NCBI RefSeq assembly: GCF_003933745.1
Contig: NZ_RSEB01000005.1
Span: forward strand, 312,475 to 376,474
Source: Glycomyces terrestris
GTDB taxonomy: Bacteria; Actinomycetota; Actinomycetes; Mycobacteriales; Micromonosporaceae
Direction: 5' to 3'
DNA: 64,000 nt
Part shown: positions 27,782 to 33,220 of the stretch, piece after piece
How positions within the stretch are numbered: position 1 is the first letter of the stretch
How the letters are laid out: the number at the start of each line of letters is the position of its first letter
Translations under genes and position numbers: made by a program
Notes under the pieces: generated by a model
What the model was told of the DNA's origin: nothing
Database searches by the model: none
The model's input: only the letters and a program-made list of their open reading frames with translations

Positions 27782-29923
27782 TCAGCCCAGGTCGATGCGC
27801 TTGAGCCGCTGGGTGGCGCGGGTGAGCACCACGTAGGCGACGCCGGGGCCGTGCGACTTGGCGACCGCGTCGAGGTCGACGGCGATCACCGCGTCCCACT
27901 CCAGGCCCTTGGACTCCAAGGGGCCCACCAGGGTCACGCGGCCGTCGTGGACGGCGGCCGCGAGCTCGGCGTGCCGGTCGTACGGCGCGATGACGCCGAC
28001 CGTGCCCTCCACGGACTCGAGCGCCTCGGCCACCGCGCTCGCGAGCTCCGGCAGGAGCGCCTGCGGGTCGACCGTGCGGGACTCGACGGGCACGCCGGTC
28101 TCGCGCACGGCCTCCGGGAGGTCGATGCTGCGCAGGCGCGGCTTCGCCCACTCGGCGGCGTACTCGAAGACCTCCTTGGAGTTCCGGTAGTTCTTCGTCA
28201 GGTGGAACTCGTGGAGGCGGCCGCTGGGGACGGCGCGGCGGCGGGCGTCGGCGCTCTCCTTCGGGCGCGGCCAGCTCGACTGGGCCTCGTCGCCGACGAT
28301 CGTCCACCCGGCGGCGCGGCCGCGGCGGCCGAGCATCCGCCACTGCATCGGCGAGAGGTCCTGGGCCTCGTCGACGATGACGTGCGCGTAGTCCTCGTAG
28401 AACGCGTCGCGGGCCTGGCGCTCGGGCCGGTCGTAGAAGCGGTCCTGGGCGGTCGAGACCTCCTGGATGCCGTCCCACGAGCGGATGCGGTCGCGCCCGC
28501 GCGGCTGCGGCTTGACGCCGAGGAGGAGGCGCAGCTCGTCGAGGAGCGCCACGTCCGGGATCGAGAAGTCCGCCTCGCGCAGCGACGCGGCGACCGCCTC
28601 GATGGACTCGCGCTTGAGGTGGCCCTCGGCCGCCGAGGCGAGGCGGCGCTCGTCGCCGGCCCAGCCCAGGACCTCGGCCGGGTCGAGGTCGGGCCACCAG
28701 TGGTCGAGGAACGTGAGGAACTCCCCGCGCGAGCCGACGTCCCGTGAGAACTTCGCGGGCTCGGCGTCCGGGATCACCGGCTTCACCTTGCGCCACAAGG
28801 CGACCAGGAGCGCACGGCCGGCCTCGGTCTTGGCGAGGTTGGGGCGCGGCTCCTTCTCGAACACGCGGGCGCGGGCGGCGGCGAGGTCGGCGGCGTCGAG
28901 CTTGAACACGTCGCCGCGGTAGACGATCCGCAGCTCGCTCGGGGCGTCCGGCGGGGTCTGGCGGATCAGGCGGCGCAGGATCGGGAGCATCACGGTGCCG
29001 CCCTTCACGGCCGCGACCGCGGGCCGGTCCTGGCGGACCGCCTCGACGCCGGCGTACAGCTCGCCGAGCGAGTACAGGGCGGCGGTCTCCTCGCCGAGGC
29101 TGGGGAGGACGCGGCCGATGTACTTCATGAACACCGCGGAGGGGCCGACGACGAGGATGCCGGCGGCCTCGTAGCGGCTGCGGTCCTGGTACAGCAGGAA
29201 CGCGGCGCGGTGCAGGGCCACCACGGTCTTGCCGGTGCCGGGGCCGCCGGTGATGATCGTGGCGCCGCGCCCGGGCGCGCGGATCGCGGCGTCCTGCTCG
29301 GCCTGGATCGTGGCCACGATGTCGCGCATCCGGCCGGTGCGCTTGCGGCCCAGGGCGGCCATGAGCGCGCCGTCGCCGATCACGGGGAGGCGCTCGGCGG
29401 CGTCCTCGTTGAGGAGGTCGTCGCTGATCTCCTCCACGGCGCGGCCGAACGAGCGGATGACGCGGCGCCGGGCCACGTCCTGGCGGTCGACGGCGGTCGC
29501 GCGGTAGAACGGGGCGGCGGCGGGCGCGCGCCAGTCGACCAGGAGCGTGCGGTACTCCTCGTCGCGCACGCCGAGGCGTCCGATGTGGCGGACCTTGCCG
29601 TCGTCGAAGTCGAGGCGGCCGAAGACGAGGCCCTCGTGCTGGGAGTCGAGGTCGGCGATGCGGCGGGCGGCGCGGTAGACGAACACGTCGCGCTCGAACT
29701 GGGCGCCGGGCACGGTCGCGGCGAGATGGCGGTAACCGGCGTCGCGGTCGCCCACGGCGTCGGCGCGCAGCACGTCGACCCGGTCGTAGACGCGGTCGAC
29801 GAAGGCCTGCTCGATCGCGATCTCCTGCTCGGGGGTGTTCGCGGGATCGGGATCGGGCACTGCGTGGGAGGTGTCGACGTCCTCCGGCTGGCGGGCGTCG
29901 GCGGGGCCTGGTTCCTGGGACAC
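27782..29923 (-). CDS. HelD/HelR-like RNA polymerase-associated superfamily 1 ATPase
   Basis: The 713-residue product has an N-terminal helical region, then motor motifs: Walker A in GGPGTGKTVVALHRAAFLLYQ (about residue 230), Walker B in HVIVDEAQDLSPMQWRMLGRR, GWTIVGDEAQSSW, and motif VI-like GVAYVVLTRATQRLKRI. In actinobacteria HelD and HelR proteins remove RNA polymerase from DNA, and HelR can protect it from rifampicin. The N-terminus VFVYRAARRIADLDSQHEGLVFGRLDF fits this family better than UvrD. No rifamycin-associated element was seen upstream. GTG 29923 follows GCGAGGAG, and a TAGGCT lies 30 nt further up. Confidence 0.85.
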   Translation of the reverse strand: MSQEPGPADARQPEDVDTSHAVPDPDPANTPEQEIAIEQAFVDRVYDRVDVLRADAVGDRDAGYRHLAATVPGAQFERDVFVYRAARRIADLDSQHEGLVFGRLDFDDGKVRHIGRLGVRDEEYRTLLVDWRAPAAAPFYRATAVDRQDVARRRVIRSFGRAVEEISDDLLNEDAAERLPVIGDGALMAALGRKRTGRMRDIVATIQAEQDAAIRAPGRGATIITGGPGTGKTVVALHRAAFLLYQDRSRYEAAGILVVGPSAVFMKYIGRVLPSLGEETAALYSLGELYAGVEAVRQDRPAVAAVKGGTVMLPILRRLIRQTPPDAPSELRIVYRGDVFKLDAADLAAARARVFEKEPRPNLAKTEAGRALLVALWRKVKPVIPDAEPAKFSRDVGSRGEFLTFLDHWWPDLDPAEVLGWAGDERRLASAAEGHLKRESIEAVAASLREADFSIPDVALLDELRLLLGVKPQPRGRDRIRSWDGIQEVSTAQDRFYDRPERQARDAFYEDYAHVIVDEAQDLSPMQWRMLGRRGRAAGWTIVGDEAQSSWPRPKESADARRRAVPSGRLHEFHLTKNYRNSKEVFEYAAEWAKPRLRSIDLPEAVRETGVPVESRTVDPQALLPELASAVAEALESVEGTVGVIAPYDRHAELAAAVHDGRVTLVGPLESKGLEWDAVIAVDLDAVAKSHGPGVAYVVLTRATQRLKRIDLG

Positions 29924-31225: not shown

Positions 31226-31879
31226 ATGCGAATCGGAGAGCTCAGCGCGCGGACCGGGGTGCCGGCGGCCACCATCAAGTACTACGTGCGCGAGGGCCTG
31301 CTCTCCGGCGGCGAGCGCCGCAGCCACAACCAGGTCGAGTACGGCGAGGACCACGTGCGGCGGCTGCGGCTCGTGCGGGCCATGGTCGAGGTCGGCTCGC
31401 TGCCGATCGCGAAGGTCCGGGAGGTGCTGGCCGAGATCGAGGAGCCCGACCGCGACCTCGACAGCACGCTGGGCGTCACCAGTCGGGCGCTCTCGCATCA
31501 CCGCGTGCCCGCGGAGGAGCCGGCCGAGGAGGACCTCGCACTCGCGCGCGCCATCGTGCGCCGCCGCGGCTGGGACGCCGTGCCCGCCGACCACGCCCAC
31601 ATCCGGACCCTCGCCGACGCCATCGGGCGCCTCCGCGAGCTCGGCCTGGCCGACATGGTCGACATGACCGGCGAGTACGCCCGCGCGGCCGAGATCGTCG
31701 CCGAGATCGACCTCTCCCTCCTGTCCACCCGGCGGGAGCGCGACGAGATCCTCGAGGCCATGGTCGTCGGCACGGTCCTGGGCGACGCGATGTTCGAGGC
31801 GCTGCGCCGCATCGCGCAGGTCGAGGTCTCGGCGCGGGTATACCTACGTGGACAACAGGACCCGCAGGGAAGCGAGTAA
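31226..31879 (+). CDS. MerR-family transcriptional regulator with C-terminal helical domain
   Basis: The 217-residue product has a MerR winged helix (MRIGELSARTGVPAATIKYY, then VREGLLSGG), a coiled-coil segment, and a long C-terminal helical domain (about residues 85-205) likely to sense a ligand. It resembles the TcmR-like subgroup that binds small molecules. AAGAAGGAG precedes the ATG. It is divergent from DUF2306-GNAT, its likely targets. Confidence 0.87.
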   Translation: MRIGELSARTGVPAATIKYYVREGLLSGGERRSHNQVEYGEDHVRRLRLVRAMVEVGSLPIAKVREVLAEIEEPDRDLDSTLGVTSRALSHHRVPAEEPAEEDLALARAIVRRRGWDAVPADHAHIRTLADAIGRLRELGLADMVDMTGEYARAAEIVAEIDLSLLSTRRERDEILEAMVVGTVLGDAMFEALRRIAQVEVSARVYLRGQQDPQGSE

Positions 31880-31960
31880 CACTCATCCACACAGGACCGT
31901 CTCCGGCCCTCCCCCATGCCCGTTCATGCGCGAATGGCAATGTCTGCACTTGTCGGGTTT

Positions 31961-32160
31961 TTGACTTCGCAAGTCGATTGGGTGGTTCTACGCTGATTGC
32001 ACGCCCGGAAATGGCGTGGCGGCAAGCTCCAAGCCTGCTCGACAAGAGACTTTGCCGCCATCACCAGGAGGCCGTCCGCCGAAGTGGGGTAGACGGACGG
32101 CCCGCGGCGGGGTCCCGATCACCTGGCCCGGGGCCCCGCCGCCTTTTGGCGGGGCCGGCC
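31961..32160 (+). ncRNA. Candidate structured small RNA with its own promoter and terminator
   Basis: A TACGCT -10 hexamer (31989-31994) follows TTGACT (31961-31966), though with a long 22-nt spacing and with the dyad GACTT-CGC-AAGTC between. The predicted transcript from about 32001 has three hairpins: TGGCGGCAA (32017-32025) with TTGCCGCCA (32052-32060), GGCCGTCCG (32070-32078) with CGGACGGCC (32094-32102), and a terminator-like GGCCCCGCC (32132-32140) with GGCGGGGCC (32148-32156). The sequence is not open in a gene-like way, and the next gene on either side is not co-oriented downstream, so a trans-acting RNA fits better than a leader. No known RNA family is recognised. Confidence 0.4.
32132..32156. 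terminator. Terminator hairpin near the sulfotransferase stop
   Basis: GGCCCCGCC (32132-32140) and GGCGGGGCC (32148-32156) form a 9-bp GC stem around GCCTTTT. It would end the candidate small RNA on the plus strand and may also end the sulfotransferase transcript coming from the other strand. Confidence 0.6.
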
Positions 32161-32192
32161 AGGCGACCCGAAGGTCAGGTGCCGCCGACACG

Positions 32193-33089
32193 TCAGGGCC
32201 GGTTGAGCCATTCGATCAGTTCGGGAGGGCCCATCGTCCGCACGCGCTCGGAGTAGCACTCGAGATCGGCCTCGCTCAAGACCTCTGCCGCCGCCCCCGA
32301 TCCTCCCCTCCGGAAGAACGCCTCGCGGCTCTTCATCACGCCCGACGGGTCGGGCGCGAAGCGGTCGGCCTTCGACTTCATGTCCGCGAAGGTCGCGGCC
32401 TTCACCAGTTCCGGCCAGCGCTCCGGATCGACCTCGATCTCGAGCCAGTCCGCGATGCGCCGCATCTCGCGCTCGAGGTCCGCGGCGAGGTCGGCATAGT
32501 GGACGAGCAGGAGGTTCGGTTGGTCGCGCCGGTTCCAGGCGTCGCCGAGATGGTGCATGACGCCGGGAAGGGCGTCGAGGTCGTCGCGCGGGCCGGCTTC
32601 CCTGCGGATCCAGCCGGCGAGCCACTGGGCGAGCGGCCACGGCGGCTTCGGCTTGCTGCCGGGTTCGGGTCGGGGAGCGCCGACGAGGGCGCGGATGCGG
32701 TCGTGATCGAGGTTGTTGCCCTGGTGGTAGAGGGATACTGCGGCGTCGAGGGGGTGCCGGGCGGCGACGATGTAGCGGGTGTCGGGGCGCAGGGGAATGC
32801 CGTCGAGCGGAGTGTGGGTCTTCATGACGCGGCGGTGGGACTGGGCCGCGAGGCGGGCGTGCATCTCGGCTTCGGGGACGACGAGCCAGTCGACCCACGG
32901 GGAGAGTTCGTGCAGGGGCGCGCCGAGGTCGGGCGTCTGGAGCACGAGGAGGGCGACGATGGCCTGGGTCCAGGTGGTGCCGTGCTTGGAGCGGGTGCTG
33001 ATGACGATGTCGCCGGAGCGGGGCGGGAGGCGGAGCCAGCGGGCGGAGTCCTCGTCGCGGGACTGGTACCGGTGCGGTGCGTCGGGCAT
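32193..33089 (-). CDS. Sulfotransferase domain protein
   Basis: The 298-residue product is a PAPS-dependent sulfotransferase. The 5'-phosphosulfate loop is VISTRSKHGTTWTQAIV, a KTHTPLDGIPL strand follows, and the 3'-phosphate motif is IVAARHPLDAAVSLYHQ. The C-terminal FRRGGSGAAAEVLSE corresponds to the RKG-type segment, here less canonical. Substrates may be small hydroxyl compounds. The ATG at 33089 is chosen because the minus-strand TACGCT (33096-33101) ends 6 nt upstream, a leaderless geometry. Confidence 0.88.
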   Translation of the reverse strand: MPDAPHRYQSRDEDSARWLRLPPRSGDIVISTRSKHGTTWTQAIVALLVLQTPDLGAPLHELSPWVDWLVVPEAEMHARLAAQSHRRVMKTHTPLDGIPLRPDTRYIVAARHPLDAAVSLYHQGNNLDHDRIRALVGAPRPEPGSKPKPPWPLAQWLAGWIRREAGPRDDLDALPGVMHHLGDAWNRRDQPNLLLVHYADLAADLEREMRRIADWLEIEVDPERWPELVKAATFADMKSKADRFAPDPSGVMKSREAFFRRGGSGAAAEVLSEADLECYSERVRTMGPPELIEWLNRP

Positions 33090-33220
33090 GCCCGGAGCGT
33101 AGGCCGGGTCCGCCAACGCGGCGATCGGATTCGGTCGCCTGCCGCCGCGGCGGTTGAGCGGGGGCGGGCGGCTCTCTACGATGGAGTCGACGACCGTCTA
33201 TCTCCAGGAGTGCGATTCCC

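Follow-up and report, generated by a model that had tools for sequence, protein, structure and literature searches.

The intergenic small RNAs of actinobacteria, of which 6C RNA is an example, are short and rich in stem-loops, with conserved motifs in their unpaired loops and a terminator-like last hairpin. Ms1, which binds RNA polymerase, and 6S RNA each form a single long rod with a central bubble. In a survey of Ms1, neither the RNA nor its synteny was detected in the Glycomycetales (PMC9130861). RNA polymerase is also bound by studied members of the HelD family, and HelD recycles this enzyme in mycobacteria (PMC11464796, PMC7749160). Here we describe, from a 64,000-nucleotide stretch of DNA of the soil bacterium Glycomyces terrestris (hereafter called the window), a new structured RNA family whose known distribution is so far confined to Glycomyces and close relatives of this genus.

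Like the 6C-type RNAs, this RNA is short, intergenic, and rich in stem-loops, and it combines conserved loop motifs with a terminator-like last hairpin. In contrast to 6C RNA, its loops carry GUGGGGUAG and ACCUGGCC rather than runs of C, and it has no Rfam match. It resembles Ms1 and 6S RNA in being noncoding and in lying beside a gene whose product is related to a factor that binds RNA polymerase, an enzyme that Ms1 itself binds; it differs from them in forming three separate hairpins instead of one rod, and its synteny is not that of Ms1. Rfam 15 yielded no match at the gathering threshold, and the matches of a permissive search lay far below the gathering scores, none of them being credible, in agreement with a previous sequence-only reading that the element resembles no known RNA family. 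We found no report of this RNA in the open-access literature searched, a scope outside which most subscription papers lie; the one paper there that covers both Glycomyces and small RNA is the Ms1 survey, and there was nothing for Stackebrandtia.

The conserved sequence, promoter included, spans approximately positions 31925–32147 of the window. It lies in an intergenic stretch (31880–32192) between a MerR-type regulator gene (31226–31879, + strand) and a sulfotransferase gene (32193–33116, − strand), the latter being the nearest gene downstream and convergent with the RNA. The sequence-only reading had proposed a novel small RNA at 31961–32160, in a stretch without genes and with no same-strand gene before 33221. 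The description of the genes is correct, and the small RNA itself is supported by its conservation, its covariation, and the absence of a shared reading frame. The proposed range is incomplete, as it misses part of a conserved upstream block that begins at about 31925.

The segment 31990–32165 folds somewhat better on the + strand than its shuffles (MFE z = −2.3), and the folds of single sequences are broadly consistent with three hairpins, hereafter called H1, H2, and H3. The covariation exceeds that of all 500 shuffles in the number of paired cells, the number of cells changed on both sides, and the covariation score. The whole structure has 33 double-change cells, as compared to 10.7 in the shuffles; such counts are inflated by the kinship of the sequences, but partners slid by 1–3 columns give at most 10. 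The compensatory changes that the earlier reading expected of a genuine RNA are thus present, and they support all three hairpins, H3 most strongly.

H1 (32009–32067, + strand) consists of an inner helix (32018–32025 with 32052–32059) and a weaker outer helix, with a conserved internal CTGCTCGAC. The inner helix shows double changes at four pairs, and it lies where the first stem had been placed, with TGGCGGCAA (32017–32025) pairing with TTGCCGCCA (32052–32060). The outer helix shows one-sided changes and no double changes, and is remodeled in a second Glycomyces subclade. Outside Glycomyces, H1 is poorly kept and does not occur in the same form. H2 (32070–32102, + strand) is likewise found where the second stem had been located: GGCCGTCCG (32070–32078) pairs with CGGACGGCC (32094–32102), the loop contains the invariant GTGGGGTAG (32084–32092), and at two pairs both partners have changed, in 8 and 5 sequences, respectively.

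H3 (32104–32142, + strand), the probable terminator, has 14 pairs (32104–32117 with 32129–32142) and a loop (32118–32128; ATCACCTGGCC) with a conserved ACCTGGCC. Among 26 distinct sequences from four genera, 98.1% of its cells are paired, as compared to 44–59% for slid partners; in the same four genera, H3 has 39 double-change cells versus 9.4 in the shuffles, and double changes occur in 8 of the 14 pairs. The third stem had been assigned a wrong geometry, at 32132–32156, which joins the 3′ arm of H3 to a partial copy of H3 further downstream. These positions can pair, and do so strongly only in L001, L032, L034, and L040, and partly in L036. Partial inverted or repeated copies of H3 lie directly downstream of it in the window (32121–32170), L032, and L034, and in these few species give an alternative hairpin, which is the third stem of the sequence-only reading. 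A TTTT run (32144–32147, + strand) follows H3 in the window, while T runs are present in only some relatives and absent in many.

Which strand forms the RNA? In H2 and H3, G–U cells outnumber A–C cells by 15 to 2, which favors the + strand. The minus strand has the better fold z-score (−4.0), but the promoter lies on the + strand and the excess of G–U over A–C cells also argues for it; we thus rejected a minus-strand RNA.

The conserved sequence is present as a single copy in each of the 22 Glycomyces genomes. A genome-wide DNA pattern derived from the RNA mainly matches Glycomyces contigs, and its matches in other organisms (Halopseudomonas, Rhodoferax, Gemmobacter, and others) were taken as chance. 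The edges of the conserved sequence are sharp: in the alignment of the whole intergenic region, the mean pairwise identity is 79–89% for the hairpins and for the upstream block, as compared to 33–42% in the flanks, which do not align among Glycomyces. Conservation is highest in H3 and in the upstream block. The neighborhood is broadly alike in the 20 loci examined, where the RNA persists while the genes for MerR, the sulfotransferase, the thioredoxin-like protein, and others are variably present. The conservation beyond the window, for which the sequence-only reading had asked, extends to relatives in three further genera.

The upstream DNA block (31925–31966, + strand) contains TGTC (31951–31954) and, 8 bp later, GACT (31963–31966). 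A further ATGTCTG is present at 31940–31946. Within 31935–31966, the mean pairwise identity reaches 88.9%, versus 42% in the flank. The −10 element TACGCT (31989–31994, + strand), which had been recognized before, begins 22 bp after GACT, and in all 22 genomes TAnnnT keeps its T, its A, and its final T without change while the middle bases vary. The promoter claimed earlier was therefore right in its −10, but the promoter is more elaborate than was stated, as it includes the further upstream motif and reads TGTC-N8-GACT-N21/22-TAnnnT. A TTGACT is present at 31961–31966, but the 22 bp that separate it from the −10 exceed the spacing of an ordinary −35 element. Because of this distance, and because its center is near −42, TGTC-N8-GACT is probably bound by an activator and would not serve as a −35 element. 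Transcription would start near 32000–32002. Scans with generic consensus promoters and terminators gave no site here, whereas the comparative evidence for a promoter and a terminator of its own (the invariant TAnnnT, the covarying H3, and the T run in the window) is good.

PafBC-type promoters carry tTGTCRgtg, followed after 8 nt by TAnnnT (PMC5656591). The promoter described here is alike in its TGTCGG core upstream of TAnnnT, but its TGTC is located 33–34 bp before TAnnnT and is followed by the GACT block, a spacing unfit for PafBC, which we therefore rejected as the activator. The neighboring MerR was also rejected as the regulator, since tblastn finds no MerR gene beside the RNA in L075, L079, and L080, where the site persists.

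The upstream motif is nearly private to Glycomyces and its close relatives. Genome-wide, exactly two copies are found in 14 of 15 Glycomyces tested and one in G019, and a reversed-pattern control gives near zero. Of 399 sampled genomes from the order, 11 genomes of the clade contain the motif, as do 2 of the 388 others. In the 13 Glycomyces loci inspected (L195, L183, L184, L186–L190, L192, L194, L196, L204, and L207), the second copy is located upstream of a membrane protein gene whose product has ~174 residues. In the window's genome (L195), it is located just after ispG, at G000:C1:1021196-1021238 on the − strand, and the membrane protein has no Pfam match. In all 13 loci, an inverted TGTCGG-like copy lies 75–87 bp downstream of the second motif copy, which suggests a protein-binding site.

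Outside Glycomyces, the covariance model matches sequences in two other genera, represented by G034 (E 1e-12) and G033 (E 1e-6). When the whole order was searched, weak matches also appeared beyond the clade, and these were taken as chance. In both G034 and G033, the HelD/HelR-type motor protein gene known from the window (27782–29923, − strand) lies divergently to the RNA. In a third genus, g5—probably Stackebrandtia—relatives of the RNA are found upstream of the closest HelD genes in 5/5 genomes. Among these five, the covariance score is good in one genome (L145, E 2e-5) and modest in two others, and in the last two it does not reach significance at the locus; the homology in g5 is therefore argued mainly from the promoter, the position, and the CCTGGCC motif in the last hairpin. 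In G028, the promoter and the terminator are present with a different middle. The RNA is divergent from a HelD-type gene in all three further genera, as it is in every genus looked at, and the promoter motif is present at 8/8 of the closest helD loci and 0/17 of the more distant ones. In the window, GNAT, DUF2306, and MerR genes separate the RNA from helD. These genes may be later insertions, since helD directly adjoins the RNA, as its divergent neighbor, in one Glycomyces (L080). The HelD/HelR-type protein of the window scores far below the cut-offs of the curated HelD and HelR models, and it possibly represents a separate subfamily.

Considering the structure, the promoter, and the neighborhood, we propose with good confidence that the locus is a stand-alone, factor-activated noncoding RNA gene, with a transcript of ~145 nt that would act in trans. 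Transcription would begin from the housekeeping-type −10 (TAnnnT), which lacks a good −35, with the aid of an activator bound at TGTC-N8-GACT, and would end at H3. The transcript would display GUGGGGUAG on H2 and the ACCUGGCC loop on H3, and it would most likely act through these exposed loops, which could base-pair with mRNAs or bind a protein. A scan of the neighboring gene starts revealed no enrichment of loop complements, except for a non-specific 6-mer near the helD start, and we rejected pairing to neighboring genes for want of a specific signal.

Could the RNA instead be a 5′ leader, such as a riboswitch or an attenuator? In many Glycomyces, a gene for an AhpC/TSA thioredoxin-like protein starts ~190–320 nt after the matched RNA start on the same strand, and H3 could serve as its attenuator. 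However, the window and at least seven other Glycomyces have an intervening convergent gene or no thioredoxin-like gene, a different gene lies downstream in G033, and in the two g5 loci checked the adjacent downstream gene reads towards the RNA. Many loci thus have convergent or different genes in place of the constant co-oriented gene that a leader would precede. With a convergent neighbor downstream in the window, several other Glycomyces, and the two g5 loci, a leader role is unlikely.

Since conservation peaks at H3 and in the upstream block, the locus might comprise only a conserved terminator and a protein-binding DNA site, the RNA itself being functionless. Between the promoter and the terminator, however, H2 with its invariant loop and the internal CTGCTCGAC of H1 are conserved as well, and H2 shows double changes. 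We regard such an arrangement as quite unlikely.

The absence of a shared reading frame bears on whether the transcript is a small mRNA for a short peptide. Indels shift the frames among Glycomyces, leaving none of useful length in common, and no conserved frame crosses the stems; the presence of such a frame is what the sequence-only reading had named as speaking against its proposal. The sole shared frame is GTG GGG TAG—a start, one codon, and a stop—in the H2 loop (32084–32092), which is invariant in the 22 Glycomyces and could be taken in favor of translation. An AGGAGG-like sequence lies ~12 nt upstream of it in most Glycomyces. We rejected it as a functional start-stop frame, as it is lost in L107 and L145. 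The upstream ATGTCTGCACTTG block was likewise rejected as a leader peptide, as one genome lacks the start and the stops vary; the changes in this block are mostly at first and second codon positions. Upstream of helD in L146 and L178, the same type of promoter precedes short open frames that are rich in Trp and Cys and have good ribosome-binding sites (MLVNVGLGVAVIAGWWGWHCWCWW and MLISIGATVLGWGHWCGSCFW, respectively); a coding role is therefore possible in these two loci. The remaining relatives have no such peptide, and for the family a peptide-coding function appears very unlikely.

Finally, the linked HelD-family gene and the lack of detected Ms1 or Ms1 synteny in the Glycomycetales could point to an RNA polymerase-binding counterpart of Ms1 or 6S RNA, but with three tandem hairpins in place of the rod, no Rfam match, and a synteny unlike that of Ms1, this identity is highly improbable.

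The stand-alone noncoding RNA gene may still be related to HelD in function: the synteny suggests, as a lead, a link to RNA polymerase recycling and a part in the stress response to which HelD belongs. In a more speculative and doubtful extension, the RNA and HelD, as a factor that rescues stalled RNA polymerase, would constitute a divergent stress module, with an activator shared with the ispG-adjacent membrane protein gene, and the RNA, acting on either RNA polymerase or transcription-stress targets, would replace Ms1 in the Glycomycetales. The present analysis adds a well-supported RNA family to an order in which Ms1 was not detected. The nearly private promoter motif provides a handle on the regulator of the RNA, and through the divergent helD link a role in RNA polymerase recycling can be tested directly.
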